Assembly: GCA_029209985.1 (NCBI GenBank)
Contig: JARGNZ010000016.1
Span: forward strand, 1 to 64,000
DNA: 64,000 nt
DNA from: Parvibaculaceae bacterium
Lineage (GTDB): Bacteria > Pseudomonadota > Alphaproteobacteria > Parvibaculales > Parvibaculaceae
Direction: 5' to 3'
Below the pieces are notes generated by a model. That model was not told where the DNA came from. It saw only the letters and a program-made list of their open reading frames with translations, and ran no database searches. The position numbers and the translations under genes were made by a program. This document shows positions 23,902 through 52,374 of this stretch, in pieces (position 1 is the stretch's first letter; each line of letters starts with the position of its first letter).

Positions 23902-25926
23902 TTAGCGGCCAAAGAGGCCTTTCAGGGCTTTACCAGCACCGCTCTCCTTGTCAGAAGAACCGCCGCCGAGCAAACCGTCTACCAGGTCGCTGGCCCCGCC
24001 ACTCTTGCCGCCTAGGTTTTTCACGGCATCGACAATAGCGTCAGGGTTGTTAGAGAGGGCAGCTGCAAGGTCAGGGGAGAACGATGGATCGCTCCACGGA
24101 CCAGAAATAACCACAGGCACTTCAATGCCAGAAGCACTGCTGCCGCCTTGGCCTTCAAGTGAGCCAACAAGCTTTGGCTCTACCCGGTAATTGAGGGTTT
24201 GCTTGGGCATGTCCACAGTCCCCTTGCCTGCAATGCGGATCAACGGGCTCAGCATTTTTAAGTCTGAGTTTGTCAAAATGCCTCGGGCAATTGTGAAGGA
24301 GCCATTGAGCTCTGAGAAGTCAGTGCTCTGCGTGCCGCCTGCGCCCCAACCAGAAAGCGGGTTGCTAAAGACATTCCGCATGAGCTGGGCAATGTTGATG
24401 CCGCGAATGGCCCCATTTTGGAAGTCAAACTTGCCTTTGCCCGATAGCGCCGAAACCATTGCTTTTTGGCTCTTGCCACTTGTGTTGATGGCAAAGTCAA
24501 ACAAGGTGGTTCCTTCAAGACGGGTGAAATCTGCCGCATCCGTCAACAACGGCTGGGCTTGCAAACCGGACAGATCAAAATCGGCGCTGATTTTTGGTGT
24601 AGACCGTGAACCGTCCAATGTCAGGCTGCCTTTACCAGCCCCTTCATATAAGGCCAATTTGGCGAGGTTGGCGGTCATTACGCCATTGCGCAATTTGAGC
24701 TTGAGCTTGCTTTCACCAATCTTGATTTTTTGGATCAAGATGGCACCCGCAGACAAATCAAGGTCTGCATTGATGGCCCGCAAGCCTGTCATATCAATCG
24801 GGTCCGTGCTCCACCCAGCTGAGCTGGTCGTCGCAGCGCTGCTGCTTGATCCGCCAGAACCAGAACCAGACGCATCTGCATCACCGCCCATATAGACATT
24901 CGCGTCAATCTTATCGACTGCCAAAGCGCCTTTAATGTAGGGAACTTGACCCGCCACATTGGCACTTACAAAACCCTCCATAGCCATGCCATCAAAGTTG
25001 ATGACGGCATCGCTGAAGGAAAACTCAGTGCTATTGCCAGCAACCGTGCCTTTCAGGTCAAGCTCACCAAAGCCGTCGGTGCCTGCCATGGGCGACCCTG
25101 CCCATGCAGCCAAGGCGCGCACGGATGGGACGTTCAGAGTTAAGTTGCCGTTGAACGCAGGCGTATCTCCCATAACCAACGACCCTTCAAAGTCTTTGGT
25201 TACTTTGGGCGTGGACGCATCAGCTGTGATGGCCGTTGTGCCGCCTTCAAGCAATACCCGTGGCTTCTCAACCATCATGGCAATTGTCATCTTATCGCCG
25301 TTCCAAACAGCTGACCCATCGACGTTAAGCGGATCATCTAGGCTAGGCAGGGAAACGCCCAAATTAATCTCGGTGATTTCATATGACGCACCAGCCTGCG
25401 CATCTTTGTAGCTGGCGGTGCCATCGCTGATGCGAATGTCACCAAGCCGGATATCTTTAATGGGGTTTCCAACGCTAGAGCCAGCTTGGCTGTCGGTCTC
25501 ACCGCTTGCAGCTACTTCTTCACCCTCGGTTTGAGTTTGGGGCGTGAACTCCCAATTCGCATTACCTTGACGATTGATTTCTAAATGAATTTGCGGGCGT
25601 ACCAACGTGAAGCTATCCAGCTCAACACTGCCGGTCAAAAGCGGCAAAATCTTGAGAGAAACATTCAGCTCTTCCATCGACATCATGTCAGGTGTGCTGC
25701 CCCAGTCGGCGTTTGCAAAGCGGACCTTCTGCGCATTCACCCCAAGCGACGGCAAAATAGTAAGACCGACATCACCATCAATGGTGAGCGTTCTACCCGT
25801 TTGTTCTTGAGCGAGCGCTTCAAATTTTTCTTTATACGTCTCTGACGGAATGAAGGAGGCGATTGCAACGAGCGCTCCCAATGCGACGACGACGACGCCA
25901 AATATGATTACGATGATGCGGGTCAT
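23902..25926 (-). CDS. AsmA-family envelope protein
   Basis: A 674-residue protein anchored by one N-terminal helix (about 2-24, IIVIIFGVVVVALGALVAIA), with the rest in the periplasm. The AsmA N-terminal domain follows: GRTLTIDGDVGLTILPSLG, then NADWGSTPDMMSMEELNVSL. The C-terminal AsmA-like repeat region has DFDLSGLQAQPLL, KGKFDFQNGAIRGINIAQLM and GKGTVDMPKQTLNYRVEPK. A Gly/Ser-rich linker lies around residues 345-365. The family is linked to lipid transport and outer-membrane homeostasis. The start at 25926 has GAGGAGGT 5 bases upstream; an upstream in-frame start at 25962 has no such support. Confidence 0.9.
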   Translation of the reverse strand: MTRIIVIIFGVVVVALGALVAIASFIPSETYKEKFEALAQEQTGRTLTIDGDVGLTILPSLGVNAQKVRFANADWGSTPDMMSMEELNVSLKILPLLTGSVELDSFTLVRPQIHLEINRQGNANWEFTPQTQTEGEEVAASGETDSQAGSSVGNPIKDIRLGDIRISDGTASYKDAQAGASYEITEINLGVSLPSLDDPLNVDGSAVWNGDKMTIAMMVEKPRVLLEGGTTAITADASTPKVTKDFEGSLVMGDTPAFNGNLTLNVPSVRALAAWAGSPMAGTDGFGELDLKGTVAGNSTEFSFSDAVINFDGMAMEGFVSANVAGQVPYIKGALAVDKIDANVYMGGDADASGSGSGGSSSSAATTSSAGWSTDPIDMTGLRAINADLDLSAGAILIQKIKIGESKLKLKLRNGVMTANLAKLALYEGAGKGSLTLDGSRSTPKISADFDLSGLQAQPLLTDAADFTRLEGTTLFDFAINTSGKSQKAMVSALSGKGKFDFQNGAIRGINIAQLMRNVFSNPLSGWGAGGTQSTDFSELNGSFTIARGILTNSDLKMLSPLIRIAGKGTVDMPKQTLNYRVEPKLVGSLEGQGGSSASGIEVPVVISGPWSDPSFSPDLAAALSNNPDAIVDAVKNLGGKSGGASDLVDGLLGGGSSDKESGAGKALKGLFGR

Positions 25927-26114
25927 TTTGACCTCCTCAGTGATGCGTACCCCCGGTAGCAACGGGGCCTTCAGATAGAACTGAAGAAAGAAATAGCGGA
26001 GAAACGAGTCATCCGCGCGTTGAGAAACATTCTAACGTGAAACGATGCGAACTTCTTTATGTGCTTTAGCAACACCTGTCGCCCTAAAGTCACGCTTTCA
26101 ATGAAAGTACAAAG

Positions 26115-26165
26115 TGTCGCACCTTAGGTCTTGGCTAAGCGAGAGGACTCTCTTAATGTGCGACA
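26115..26165. ncRNA. Candidate three-way-junction RNA element
   Basis: Outer arms TGTCGCAC (26115-26122) and GTGCGACA (26158-26165) pair perfectly. Inside are two side hairpins, CTTAG-(7)-CTAAG (26123-26139) and GAGA-(4)-TCTC (26141-26152). The whole would fold as a compact three-way junction on either strand. I recognise no known RNA family. It may belong to a longer leader of the ABC exporter (plus) or of the AsmA gene (minus). Confidence 0.3.
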
Positions 26166-26287
26166 GCAACTTGAACACTGTTCTAGCAAAACTGTGTGAC
26201 AGTTGATCCGTTCTGCGATGCTTGGCAAGGCATCGGGAACACACTCAAACGCAACCGATTAAACCGCAACAAAAACAGGAGACACCC

Positions 26288-26392
26288 ATGGATTTTGTGG
26301 GAACATTCTGCTTTTCAAATGTGACGACAATGTGCCATGTGGCCAAAGTCTCCATCTCGAAGAGCACCGTCTCTGGGACGCTGGTACGATGA
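26288..26392 (+). CDS. Candidate 34-residue small protein or leader peptide
   Basis: An ATG at 26288 is preceded by AGGAGA (26277-26282) with a 5-base spacer, one of the best ribosome sites in the window. The frame gives 34 residues, starting MDFVGTFCFSNVTTM and ending SGTLVR, with two Cys and no clear helix or signal. The stop TGA overlaps the next ATG (ATGA, 26389-26392). It could be a leader peptide that controls downstream translation, a small protein, or chance. No family is recognised. Confidence 0.4.
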   Translation: MDFVGTFCFSNVTTMCHVAKVSISKSTVSGTLVR

Positions 26393-26526
26393 CCGCGCGC
26401 CCGGGACTTAACAACCGGGCTCACGCTCTCATACTAGCCACAAACATCAATTTAAGATGGTTTTTGCGGTCAGCGGTTTTCCTCCAAAGCACAGAAATGT
26501 GCGAGGACCAAAACCTTCCGATATGA
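26389..26526 (+). CDS. Candidate 45-residue small protein coupled to the 34-residue ORF
   Basis: The frame starts with the ATG that overlaps the preceding TGA (ATGA) and encodes 45 residues. A mildly hydrophobic centre (ALILATNINLRWFLRSAVFL) is followed by a polar end. It has no ribosome site of its own, so it would depend on re-initiation. The hairpin GCCCGG/CCGGGC lies within its first codons. Weak support on its own; reported because of the exact overlap. Confidence 0.28.
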   Translation: MTARPGLNNRAHALILATNINLRWFLRSAVFLQSTEMCEDQNLPI

Positions 26527-26670
26527 GCTAAAGACTGTTTTAACACATCGTGTTGAAACGCGTCTGCGTGACCCAGGTTCCAAGTAATGCGTATCTGTTC
26601 TGCCTTTGAGTTAAGGCAGAGCCGCCGTGCCCGCGCGTGTGCGTTGGTCTCGGCATGCATGAGGCTTGAA

Positions 26671-28458
26671 ATGACTGAGAAAGAAAGAAAAGACGTGACG
26701 TCTTGGCAGGTAGTCACGTTCATTTGGCATCGTTGGTGCCGATATCCAAAACGCATGAGTCTTTTGTTGGGAGCGATATCGCTTTTGGCATTTGTCGAGG
26801 CTCTCTTCCCCTTGCTGGCTTCCAAGTTAATGGACGCGGTGGCAGCGGGGGGGCAGGTTCCAACTCGTGAGAATTTTGATGCGGCAATGGCGGTGGTTAT
26901 CCTAATGGCCGTACAAAGCGGCCTTTATATCGTGTTCTCGCAAATCTCGTTTCGATTGTTGATCCGGCAATCAACCGACTGTATGCGCGATATAGTGACG
27001 GAAGCATTTGACCGTGTGCAAAGTTTTTCGTCGTCTTGGCACGCCGATCACTTTGCAGGGGCGACCATGCGTAAAATTAGTCGCGGCATGTGGGGGTATG
27101 ATCTCTATACGGATATGGTGGTGACTGGGTTTTTACCAGCCATGATCCATATGTCGACGGTGATTGCCGTTGTCGCTTTCGTGTGGCCGATCATGGGCTT
27201 TGTGATGTTGTTTTTTGTTGTGGCCTACATTGGTTTGACCATATGGGCGCTTCAACATTATCTCTTGGCCCCCAACCGGGAACATGTGGGGGCCGATACG
27301 GAACTGGGTGCCTCTGTGGCTGACAGTGTGACATGCAACAGCGTTGTCAAAGCCTTTGGGGCTGAATGGAGAGAAAGTTGGAAGGTCTACGAAACAGTGA
27401 CCAATTGGCGAGGCAAGGCGCGTAGGGCATGGCTACGGGGTGAAGACTTGCGTCTCATACAATCGGTCATTGTGCAGGGGATGAAACTTGCCATGATTTC
27501 ATTGGTCGCTTGGTTGTGGTTCAACGGGCAAGCCAATGTAAGTTTGGTAACGCTTGTCCTCACCAGTTATATTGGACTTGCAAACCGCTTGTGGGAAATG
27601 GCCTATCAGTTGCAACACTTGCAAAAAAGTATCAACGATGTGGAAGATGTTGTCGCGTTTGGAAAAGCACCGGCAGAAATAGTTGATCATGCAGTTGCTC
27701 AACCTTTGCAAGTGCGCAAAGGCAAGGTCAGTTTTGATCAGGTGTCTTTCCGTTATGCCAATCAGGCCGAGCGAATTTATGAGGACTTCAACCTCACCAT
27801 TCGGCCCGGTGAGCGGATTGCGTTGGTGGGTAAATCAGGGAGTGGTAAAAGCACGTTCTTGAAATTACTCCAGCGGCTTTATGATGTGGAGGAGGGGCGT
27901 ATTTTGATCGATGATCAAGATATTGCTCATGTGACCCAAAGCTCATTGCGCCAAGCGGTTTCCGTGGTGCAACAGGAACCTATCCTGTTTCACCGTTCAT
28001 TGGCAGACAACATCGCCTATGCGCAACCTGAAGCCTCGCGTCGCGAAATTATTCGGGCTGCCAAACGGGCACAGGCTCACGATTTCATTCGGGCCTTGCC
28101 AGACGGCTATGACACGATGGTTGGCGAGCGCGGTGTAAAACTGTCTGGTGGAGAGCGTCAGCGCGTTGCAATCGCGCGGGCCATTTTGGCGGATGCCCCT
28201 TTGTTGGTTCTCGATGAGGCCACATCAAGCTTGGACTCGGTGACAGAAGCCGAAGTGCAAACGGCTGTGGATGAACTGATCCGAGGCCGTACCGCCATCA
28301 TCATTGCGCACCGTCTATCAACAGTGCGTAATGTAGACCGCATTTTGGTCTTTGAAGATGGGGTTGTCGTGGAAGAGGGCGAGTATGATGCGCTGGCTTC
28401 CAAATTAGATGGCCACTTCCATACCTTACATCAACGACAAGTTGTTGGTTTGGTGTAA
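26671..28458 (+). CDS. ABC exporter half-transporter (ATP-binding/permease)
   Basis: About 595 residues. The N-terminal membrane domain has six helices (first near SLLLGAISLLAFVEALFPLL). The nucleotide-binding domain has Walker A GKSGSGKST (387-395), signature LSGGERQR (from 491), Walker B LLVLDEATSSLD (from ~511) and the switch His in IIIAHRLST. It works as a homodimer or pairs with an unknown half. It resembles MsbA/ATM1-like exporters of lipids or peptides; the substrate is unknown. The ATG at 26671 follows GAGG and starts MTEKERKDVTSW. The frame is open to 26587, but that stretch contains a perfect hairpin and unlikely residues. Next on the right is a convergent sulfotransferase. Confidence 0.9.
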   Translation: MTEKERKDVTSWQVVTFIWHRWCRYPKRMSLLLGAISLLAFVEALFPLLASKLMDAVAAGGQVPTRENFDAAMAVVILMAVQSGLYIVFSQISFRLLIRQSTDCMRDIVTEAFDRVQSFSSSWHADHFAGATMRKISRGMWGYDLYTDMVVTGFLPAMIHMSTVIAVVAFVWPIMGFVMLFFVVAYIGLTIWALQHYLLAPNREHVGADTELGASVADSVTCNSVVKAFGAEWRESWKVYETVTNWRGKARRAWLRGEDLRLIQSVIVQGMKLAMISLVAWLWFNGQANVSLVTLVLTSYIGLANRLWEMAYQLQHLQKSINDVEDVVAFGKAPAEIVDHAVAQPLQVRKGKVSFDQVSFRYANQAERIYEDFNLTIRPGERIALVGKSGSGKSTFLKLLQRLYDVEEGRILIDDQDIAHVTQSSLRQAVSVVQQEPILFHRSLADNIAYAQPEASRREIIRAAKRAQAHDFIRALPDGYDTMVGERGVKLSGGERQRVAIARAILADAPLLVLDEATSSLDSVTEAEVQTAVDELIRGRTAIIIAHRLSTVRNVDRILVFEDGVVVEEGEYDALASKLDGHFHTLHQRQVVGLV

Positions 28459-28463
28459 GGCAA

Positions 28464-28480
28464 CAGCATTCAAAATGCTG
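28464..28480. terminator. Short hairpin between convergent genes
   Basis: A perfect 7-base stem CAGCATT/AATGCTG with a 3-base loop sits between the ABC exporter stop and the sulfotransferase, and covers the latter's stop codon. No T-tract follows on either strand, so termination is possible but weak. Confidence 0.35.
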
Positions 28481-29180
28481 AACGCAGAAGCCTTTGATAG
28501 AGCGTGGACAAATCTTTGAGGTCGTCATCGACGACTGTGTCTGCGCTCATATCAGAGGCTTTTTCTTTAACAACACCCGTATGGACATAGCGTGAGTTTA
28601 ACGCCGCACCGTCTAGCATAGACTCACGATAGTCCAAGTCAGCCCATGCAGCCAGCGCCCGACTTTGTCCTTCAGTGTCGGCCAAATAGCGATCAAATGA
28701 AATGATGCCACAGTTGAAGTCAGGTTGATCCATGAGGGTTTCGAAGAGAGAATAGGCTTTGGTTAAATGGTCCAAAGCCTGCGCGCGTTTCATGTTCTCG
28801 CGATTGATGAGCGCATCTAATGAACGGCTCGGATCGCGCAAAATCACAATGAACTTGGCATCAAAGATTTGGTTGTAATCTGTAGCACTGAGGCGAGATC
28901 GAATAAGGTGGTGACGGAGCCTTTTGCGAAGGAAACCATTTTTTTGCAGTATCTTAAAGTAAGGCCGCCACTTTTGTGTGAGCTGAATTTGACTGGGCGT
29001 ACATAGCTTTACGGCAGGAATTTTATTGCCAATGATAAATCGAGCCGCCCCGTGAAACTCTTCATCAAACATCGCAATGCGAGGATGGGCGCCCAGAACA
29101 TTGGCAAGCAAGGTGGTGCCAGTACGCGGCGCGCCGACCATAATAAAACAGGGTTTCTTGGCATCGCTTGAGGAATCCAT
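28470..29180 (-). CDS. Sulfotransferase-family protein
   Basis: About 236 residues. Near the N-terminus is CFIMVGAPRTGTTLLANVLG, the PAPS 5'-phosphosulfate loop of sulfotransferases. Later, FIVILRDPSRSLDALINRE fits the 3'-phosphate-binding element (RDP---S). The enzyme would sulfate a carbohydrate, lipid or peptide in the cytoplasm; the acceptor is unknown. The frame extends to 29252, but MDSSSDAKKPCF at 29180 places the P-loop at a normal distance. No ribosome site is strong at either start. It is convergent with the ABC exporter. Confidence 0.8.
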   Translation of the reverse strand: MDSSSDAKKPCFIMVGAPRTGTTLLANVLGAHPRIAMFDEEFHGAARFIIGNKIPAVKLCTPSQIQLTQKWRPYFKILQKNGFLRKRLRHHLIRSRLSATDYNQIFDAKFIVILRDPSRSLDALINRENMKRAQALDHLTKAYSLFETLMDQPDFNCGIISFDRYLADTEGQSRALAAWADLDYRESMLDGAALNSRYVHTGVVKEKASDMSADTVVDDDLKDLSTLYQRLLRSAF

Positions 29181-29503
29181 ATTTTTCTGCGTATCCGCCA
29201 AGCTCTCGCCCCCTAGTATTGTAATGGGCAAATATCCCCTACCCAGCTGCATCTATTTAAGCAGAATCTATTCGTTTAGCAAAATTTAGATCCTTGAATT
29301 TGATAAACGCTTTGCACGGTAAATCAAATAGCTGACCAAATTTAAGTGAGAAAAAATGGAAATGATTCTGAGCTAACGTTGGGGAAACAATAGGATAGGG
29401 GGCTGTGACTTGCATCGCCCAATTCAGATGTTTAGAACCCAATCGTGTCTATTTGCTGCTGTGATCCAAACAGGGGCGTCCAAATCAGAGAAAAGAAAAC
29501 CTC

Positions 29504-51903: not shown

Positions 51904-52083
51904 AGCAAGGCCCTCTGACCAAAATTTAAGAGGACAGCAGACGCATGGATGCAGGAGATTAAAACATCACCGAAGACGCCCATAACCTATCTAGATCCAG
52001 CAAAGCTGATCCTCAACCAAGTTATGTCGTCGCAACGGAAGGCCGTGCCCGTGAACTCACCCGGTTCTGGGACGGACGACACG
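51904..52083 (-). promoter_or_regulatory. Leader between riboswitch and btuB
   Basis: A 180-base untranslated leader. I find no strong terminator hairpin with a T-tract, so the riboswitch more likely acts on btuB translation or uses Rho. A seven-codon mini-ORF (ATG at 51946 to TAA at 51926) ends 23 bases before the btuB start; it may be chance. The btuB ribosome site AGAGGG is at its 3' end. Confidence 0.5.
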
Positions 52084-52250
52084 ATGGCAGGTTTCCTGGC
52101 TTGTGCTTCATCGCCCTGTATCACCTTCCCGATGCCCTTCAAAAGGCCTCAGTGGTATGGGTTTCCCCAAGATACAGCGCTCGTCACATACAGTTGCGGG
52201 TACAGCTTCGGGTTTAAACCGAATTCCCTTTTACCCCCGAGGGGCACCAT
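52084..52250 (-). promoter_or_regulatory. Cobalamin riboswitch
   Basis: On the minus strand all conserved blocks of the cobalamin riboswitch class are present in order: GGTGCC with a C/G-rich hairpin, TAAAAGGGAA, a CCGAAGCTGTACCCGCAACTG segment (written GAAGCTG, CCCGCAACTG), GGGGAAACCCATACCACTG with the ACCACTG element, CGGGAAGG, and finally the B12 box AGCCAGGAAACCTGCC (rc of 52085-52101). It should bind adenosyl- or hydroxocobalamin and shut down the downstream uptake and synthesis operon. Confidence 0.95.
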
Positions 52251-52374
52251 CTGGAGCTTTTCTAGCGGAATTGTTGCAGTGCGACAAGGAGATTCAGCCG
52301 CTCCCTGCGATCAGGCATCCACGAACACGTGAAGCCCGTGTCCTCCTCGCAACGGTTGTCAGCACCCGGCGGAG

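Follow-up and report, generated by a model that had tools for sequence, protein, structure and literature searches.

A short open reading frame (ORF) with a Shine-Dalgarno (SD) sequence precedes an ABC exporter gene in the window (the whole 64,000-nucleotide stretch of Parvibaculaceae bacterium DNA analyzed here). Judged by sequence comparison, this leader ORF is a recurrent feature of the orthologs of the exporter across alphaproteobacteria, and the pairing between the end of the ORF and the segment after its stop codon is maintained across lineages. With moderate confidence, we read the gap between the exporter and a divergent AsmA-family gene as the leader at the 5' end of the exporter mRNA and as a putative ribosome-controlled attenuator built around the short ORF (Table 1).

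Folding and conservation of the gap

The original prediction described the gap as dense in hairpins and suggested a leader of the exporter, a leader of the AsmA gene or a small RNA. The three stems that it named were found (26536-26546/26550-26560, 26599-26606/26613-26620 and 26115-26126/26154-26165). Further, its view that the long stems together are less expected by chance agreed with the folding of the plus strand of 25927-26670 as RNA (-258.2 kcal/mol, z = -6.63), which none of 20 shuffled sequences equaled; the minus strand showed a weaker excess (z = -3.14). The strong local folds of the gap were concentrated in 26375-26660 of the plus strand (26375-26520, z = -4.1; 26472-26520, z = -3.5; 26525-26570, z = -3.2; 26590-26660, z = -3.7). 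The proposed three-way junction at 26115-26165 was at chance level (26105-26175, z = -1.19; 24 of 200 shuffles folded as well), and its counterpart in the genome G001 had a shorter outer stem and two broken inner hairpins.

G001 is the only genome of the same genus (~90% identical) and the sole one that matched the gap at the DNA level. The downstream stems are retained there, which leaves the prediction, vulnerable to their loss in close relatives, unrefuted. The hairpin at 26532-26565 carried a one-sided change from U-A to U-G, and the stem at 26597-26622 gained an extra pair by insertion of opposed C and G and showed two changes from U-A to U-G. In the hairpin at 26624-26654, a G-C pair was replaced with A-U by a double change.

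Table 1. Features of the exporter leader and adjacent genes in the window
Feature	Position	Strand	Basis or remark
AsmA-family gene, divergent; neighbor outside the system	23902-25926	-	Own SD right at gap edge
Leader ORF SD, AGGAG-AC, 6 nt before ATG	26277-26283	+	Sequence
Leader ORF, 34 codons, MDFVGTFCFSNVTTMCHVAKVSISKSTVSGTLVR, stop TGA	26288-26392	+	AGGAG 6 nt upstream; counterparts before orthologous exporters
Element 1, CTGGG, near leader ORF end; can pair with element 2, CCCGG (26400-26404), as alternative 1:2	26373-26377	+	Fold with ribosome placed early or mid ORF
Elements 2 and 3, hairpin just past leader stop, GCCCGG (26399-26404)/CCGGGC (26415-26420), alternative 2:3	26399-26420	+	Folds
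Alternative closing stem CGATGACCGC/GCGGTCAGCG over leader stop codon	26387-26475	+	Second fold, z = -3.8
Hairpin GGTTTTCCTCC...GAGGACCAAAACC	26475-26515	+	Local fold, z = -3.5
Long hairpin (10-base stem of the original prediction)	26532-26565	+	z = -3.2
Hairpin GTTCTGCCTT/AAGGCAGAGC (8-base stem of the original prediction)	26597-26622	+	Local fold
Hairpin directly 5' of exporter start	26624-26654	+	Local fold
Exporter SD, GAGG, 6 nt before ATG, ordinary type	26661-26664	+	Sequence
ABC exporter, 595 aa, ABC_membrane and ABC_tran	26671-28458	+	Start 26671 or in-frame ATG 26659

The gap was said to hold no large ORF; the 34-codon leader ORF with its AGGAG SD had been overlooked. The leader ORF of G001 has the same frame and length, with several amino-acid changes within the first two thirds. 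The interval 26359-26451, comprising the ORF end, the stop codon and the post-stop hairpin, showed zero differences from G001, compared with ~10% in the region overall (permutation p = 0.0017). In the ribosome-free state, the leader SD is predicted to pair with GTCTCC inside the ORF (26348-26353). Pairing of the leader ribosome-binding site (RBS) with its own ORF was rejected as a general feature, being weakly supported across lineages (p = 0.013). The sole consensus match to a promoter for the leader falls within the leader region. The exporter start was assigned to 26671 (or 26659) and not to 26587, because an indel in G001 between 26587 and 26671 breaks the latter frame.

The original prediction recognized no known RNA signature, and Rfam likewise gave no match for the region of the window or for relatives at gathering or relaxed thresholds, other than microRNA-type false hits. 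Two long near-palindromes in L138 (936-1062 and 3324-3446) scored as microRNA precursors under false Rfam family names; these are probably repeat or mobile palindromes. A ligand-binding aptamer within the leader would suit a region so strongly folded, but the lack of an Rfam match in the window or relatives at either threshold and a primary sequence that, unlike that of aptamers, is not common to different genera make a riboswitch extremely unlikely.

Leader ORFs upstream of orthologous exporters

Of 40 genomes of the family, 26 encoded an ortholog of the exporter (42-53% identity), as did 29 of 385 genomes sampled across the class. A short ORF with an SD precedes the exporter in nearly all family genomes having complete upstream DNA; examples of leaders upstream of orthologs are MAGHVTPSHMSPGIW, MQIVAMPSYPHLFPDRC, MEPVVKIPNHLYVGL, MTYMLQDAIPGLSSMRSFH, and MKNDTPRVIAFSKPCRHRHRV. 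The leaders are 12-34 codons long, and in 24 lineages 117-278 nt separate the leader stop codon from the start of the exporter. When a strict automatic ORF rule was applied to one genome per lineage without hand selection, 19 of the 31 lineages were positive and 12 failed, compared with 1.8 positives expected from dinucleotide shuffles. A covariance model built from a genus that we take to be Parvibaculum-like (the group of G011) found the leader in G041, G009, and G020, and missed the window.

The leader ORF was absent before all 13 paralogous ABC exporters and before all 10 more distant exporters checked. Upstream regions of AsmA contained a leader-type ORF in one of 15 cases, and none was present at three AsmA loci that have no exporter. 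Thus, from its presence at orthologs and its near-absence at paralogs and AsmA genes, the leader ORF belongs to the exporter. Further, in G027, in which AsmA and the exporter lie on separate contigs, the leader accompanies the exporter, and in other families it is also found at exporters away from AsmA. The cis-acting exporter leader envisaged by the original prediction was therefore supported, since the ORF and the folded region go with the exporter in unrelated families. Its AsmA alternative was unsupported, since the leader features are missing where AsmA has no adjacent exporter. The gap is common to both genes and its minus strand folds somewhat beyond shuffles (z = -3.1), as a leader or operator of AsmA or an independent small RNA would allow. 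Against this, the leader features follow the exporter in G027 and in other families, and AsmA has its own SD at the gap edge; we consider this explanation highly improbable, and the gap can be explained without invoking a separate small RNA.

Several observations concern the exporter and its surroundings. Searches for the exporter substrate with family models returned only matches far below cut-offs. In the window, a sulfotransferase-family gene (28470-29252, minus strand) lies between the exporter and an acetoacetate-CoA ligase gene, and in G005 and G013, which lack an exporter ortholog, the gene beside AsmA resembles acetoacetate-CoA ligase. A Cobalamin riboswitch is located at 52069-52266 of the window (minus strand, 93.6 bits). 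The exporter start of G004 (L029) reads ACG, and that of its sister genome G008 reads ATG; the ACG reflects a sequencing error, a non-standard start or decay.

The leader peptides are unrelated between genera. Within genera, the leader frame is preserved through 3-nt indels and amino-acid changes are common. Some groups share a partly conserved peptide (MQxVAxPSYPHLxPDRC; DTPRVIAFS; MTYML..PGL). The third codon positions of the leaders are also constrained, and because of this constraint the dN/dS ratio exceeded 1 in some groups; simple dN/dS was accordingly rejected as evidence of selection on the peptide. Among the leaders of 24 lineages, cysteine was ~7-fold enriched relative to the composition of the exporter and acidic residues were ~3-fold depleted. 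In four genomes of one genus (G003, G007, G010, and G016), the leader ORF DNA was identical despite differing flanks, which suggests constraint on the RNA as well as the peptide. The small ORF might encode a functional peptide, such as a cargo of the exporter or a trans regulator, as the partial conservation inside some groups and the enrichment of cysteine would permit. However, the peptides are unrelated between genera, and the constraint on third positions together with the several amino-acid changes between the window and G001 points to selection on RNA rather than peptide, so a functional peptide is barely credible.

Pairing around the leader stop codon and the exporter start

The arm-swap test compared each segment paired with its own partner or with partners from other lineages (each lineage represented by one genome; 20,000 permutations); this reduces the effects of relatedness, which persist in part, and the exporter starts, like some of the leaders, were set by eye. 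The 3' end of the leader ORF paired with the 42-nt segment downstream of the stop at -25.4 kcal/mol with its own partner and at -21.3 kcal/mol with swapped partners (p = 5e-5, the permutation floor). The largest difference among 40 controls inside or with the exporter was -2.0.

In the window, pairings 1:2 and 2:3 are the predicted alternatives (Table 1), and a lower stem (26380-26386/26432-26438) spans the last leader codons and the stop. When the ribosome was placed at the stop codon, the model flipped from 1:2 to 2:3 for the Parvibaculum-like genomes G011, G021, and G023 and for G020; in the window model, the mean pairing of the post-stop hairpin barely shifted with ribosome position. Mutual exclusivity of the stem-loops was clear in some relatives and weak in the window. 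No intrinsic terminator was found in the window, in which no T run follows element 3. Most relatives also lack one; terminators were found at 2:3 in G011, G017, G023, and G048 (and by eye in G042), and a T run follows element 3 in a few Parvibaculum-like genomes. A switch that sequesters the exporter SD was rejected, as modeled SD accessibility stayed flat across ribosome positions (means 0.31, 0.30, and 0.29).

We propose that a ribosome on the leader ORF would govern the choice of downstream helix. With the ribosome early in the ORF, the 3' end of the ORF would pair with the post-stop segment (1:2). A ribosome at the stop codon would mask the end of the ORF, with formation of the post-stop hairpin (2:3). 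This choice would set the amount of exporter mRNA that is continued or translated. We infer that the leader ORF is translated, that ribosome position acts as the switch, and that slow or stalled translation would most likely raise exporter expression. Because an intrinsic terminator is absent, the window species probably uses either Rho-dependent termination or control of translation as its output.

By analogy, the likeliest cue is translation that is slowed or inhibited by drugs, because no amino acid is repeatedly encoded across the leaders; among 24 lineages, no codon run for any amino acid was shared. A short leader ORF with alternative hairpins is also the classic layout of an attenuator that responds, through cognate codons, when one amino acid runs short. 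Proline was 3.2-fold enriched, occurring in 22 of 24 leaders, and PG was found in nine of 24 compared with ~0.9 expected. However, apart from the lack of repeated codons, the window leader contains no proline, PG often falls at the site of the CCCGG pairing element, and an exporter would be an odd target for a starvation response. An amino-acid attenuator is therefore very unlikely.

Alternatively, the leader ORF might merely keep the 5' region translated or untangled (standby or coupling, mRNA stability) with no regulated switch. The lack of peptide conservation between genera, the lack of switching in the SD-access model and the lack of a terminator in the window are as this explanation would have it. 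Yet simple coupling would require neither that pairing across the stop codon of the leader be maintained between lineages nor that the ORF end and post-stop segment be the stretch best conserved against G001, and 117-278 nt between leader and exporter is too far for direct coupling. We regard this explanation as unlikely, though worth keeping in view, and prefer the ribosome-controlled attenuator.

Most relatives carry a further hairpin, also maintained, that separates the exporter SD from the AUG. The SD is 24-46 nt from the AUG in 31 of the 32 relatives inspected (16 nt in G347); an SD closer to the AUG was seen in none of the 32, and 28 lack an alternative in-frame start in the intervening stretch. 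In the arm-swap test, the segment after the SD paired with the segment before the AUG at -12.7 with its own partner and at -6.9 with swapped partners (p = 5e-5), and control differences were within 1. Further, folding of the SD-AUG stretch had a mean z of -1.39 in orthologs (n = 43), compared with +0.15 at AsmA starts and +0.07 at paralogous exporter starts. The window species is the exception, with GAGG 6 nt before ATG. Thus the layout of a split RBS, defined as an SD at least 20 nt from the AUG with a stable intervening hairpin, is found in most relatives and not in the window.

Comparison with known systems and significance

E. coli leaders of the TnaC/SpeFL type act via Rho: no intrinsic terminator is involved, and downstream expression depends on a ribosome positioned at the stop codon of a small ORF or close to it. 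The window likewise combines a small ORF with the lack of an intrinsic terminator, but no arrest motif in common was seen in the leaders.

The BmrC/BmrD multidrug ABC exporter of Bacillus subtilis is preceded by the bmrB leader, an ORF of 53 amino acids whose coding region contains an intrinsic terminator (PMC4191407). An attenuator of this type would also be expected to depend on translation of the leader and to be induced by ribosome-targeting antibiotics. The best reading by analogy is that the gap would work like BmrB/BmrCD. Here too, a short co-directional leader ORF with an SD lies just 5' of an ABC exporter, predicted alternative stem-loops are tied to the ORF, and ribosome position is the proposed sensor in both. 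In contrast to bmrB, the leaders have 12-34 codons and the hairpin follows the stop rather than forming a terminator inside the ORF. Further, the exporter is a single-polypeptide half-transporter in another phylum. We did not assign the leader to the BmrB type, because the window lacks the intrinsic terminator that provides the off state.

In Sinorhizobium meliloti, the attenuator leader peptide peTrpL (of rnTrpL/peTrpL) acts in trans on smeR mRNA (PMC7298713). Both cases link an alphaproteobacterial leader peptide to control of multidrug efflux, in the present one putatively, but the present leader lies in cis before the exporter. Genes 25 and 38 of phage T4 have a split RBS with the SD 22-27 nt from the AUG (PMC3014915). 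In the relatives, the SD is similarly distant (mostly 24-46 nt) and an intervening hairpin would shorten the effective distance; unlike in T4, the gene is a chromosomal exporter gene of many alphaproteobacteria, the arrangement is not retained in the window species, and its function is predicted.

Tentatively, and as a possibility rather than an expectation, the leader may represent a class-wide alphaproteobacterial module of two serial RNA devices, a leader-ORF attenuator and a hairpin-bridged split RBS. In such a module, the nascent leader or stalled ribosome would sense drugs or translation stress, the SD-AUG hairpin would itself be regulated, and the window would be a derived form in which the second device was replaced.

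In a limited literature search, the SD-AUG hairpin arrangement was described solely for T4 phage genes; with its maintained hairpin, the exporter start in the relatives would add a case of split RBS that is chromosomal and conserved widely. Control of a drug-type ABC exporter by a leader peptide is already documented in Bacillus. With a comparable element that alphaproteobacterial families conserve and Rfam does not contain, such control would reach Gram-negatives as well, and the leader would give a cue to what induces this uncharacterized exporter.
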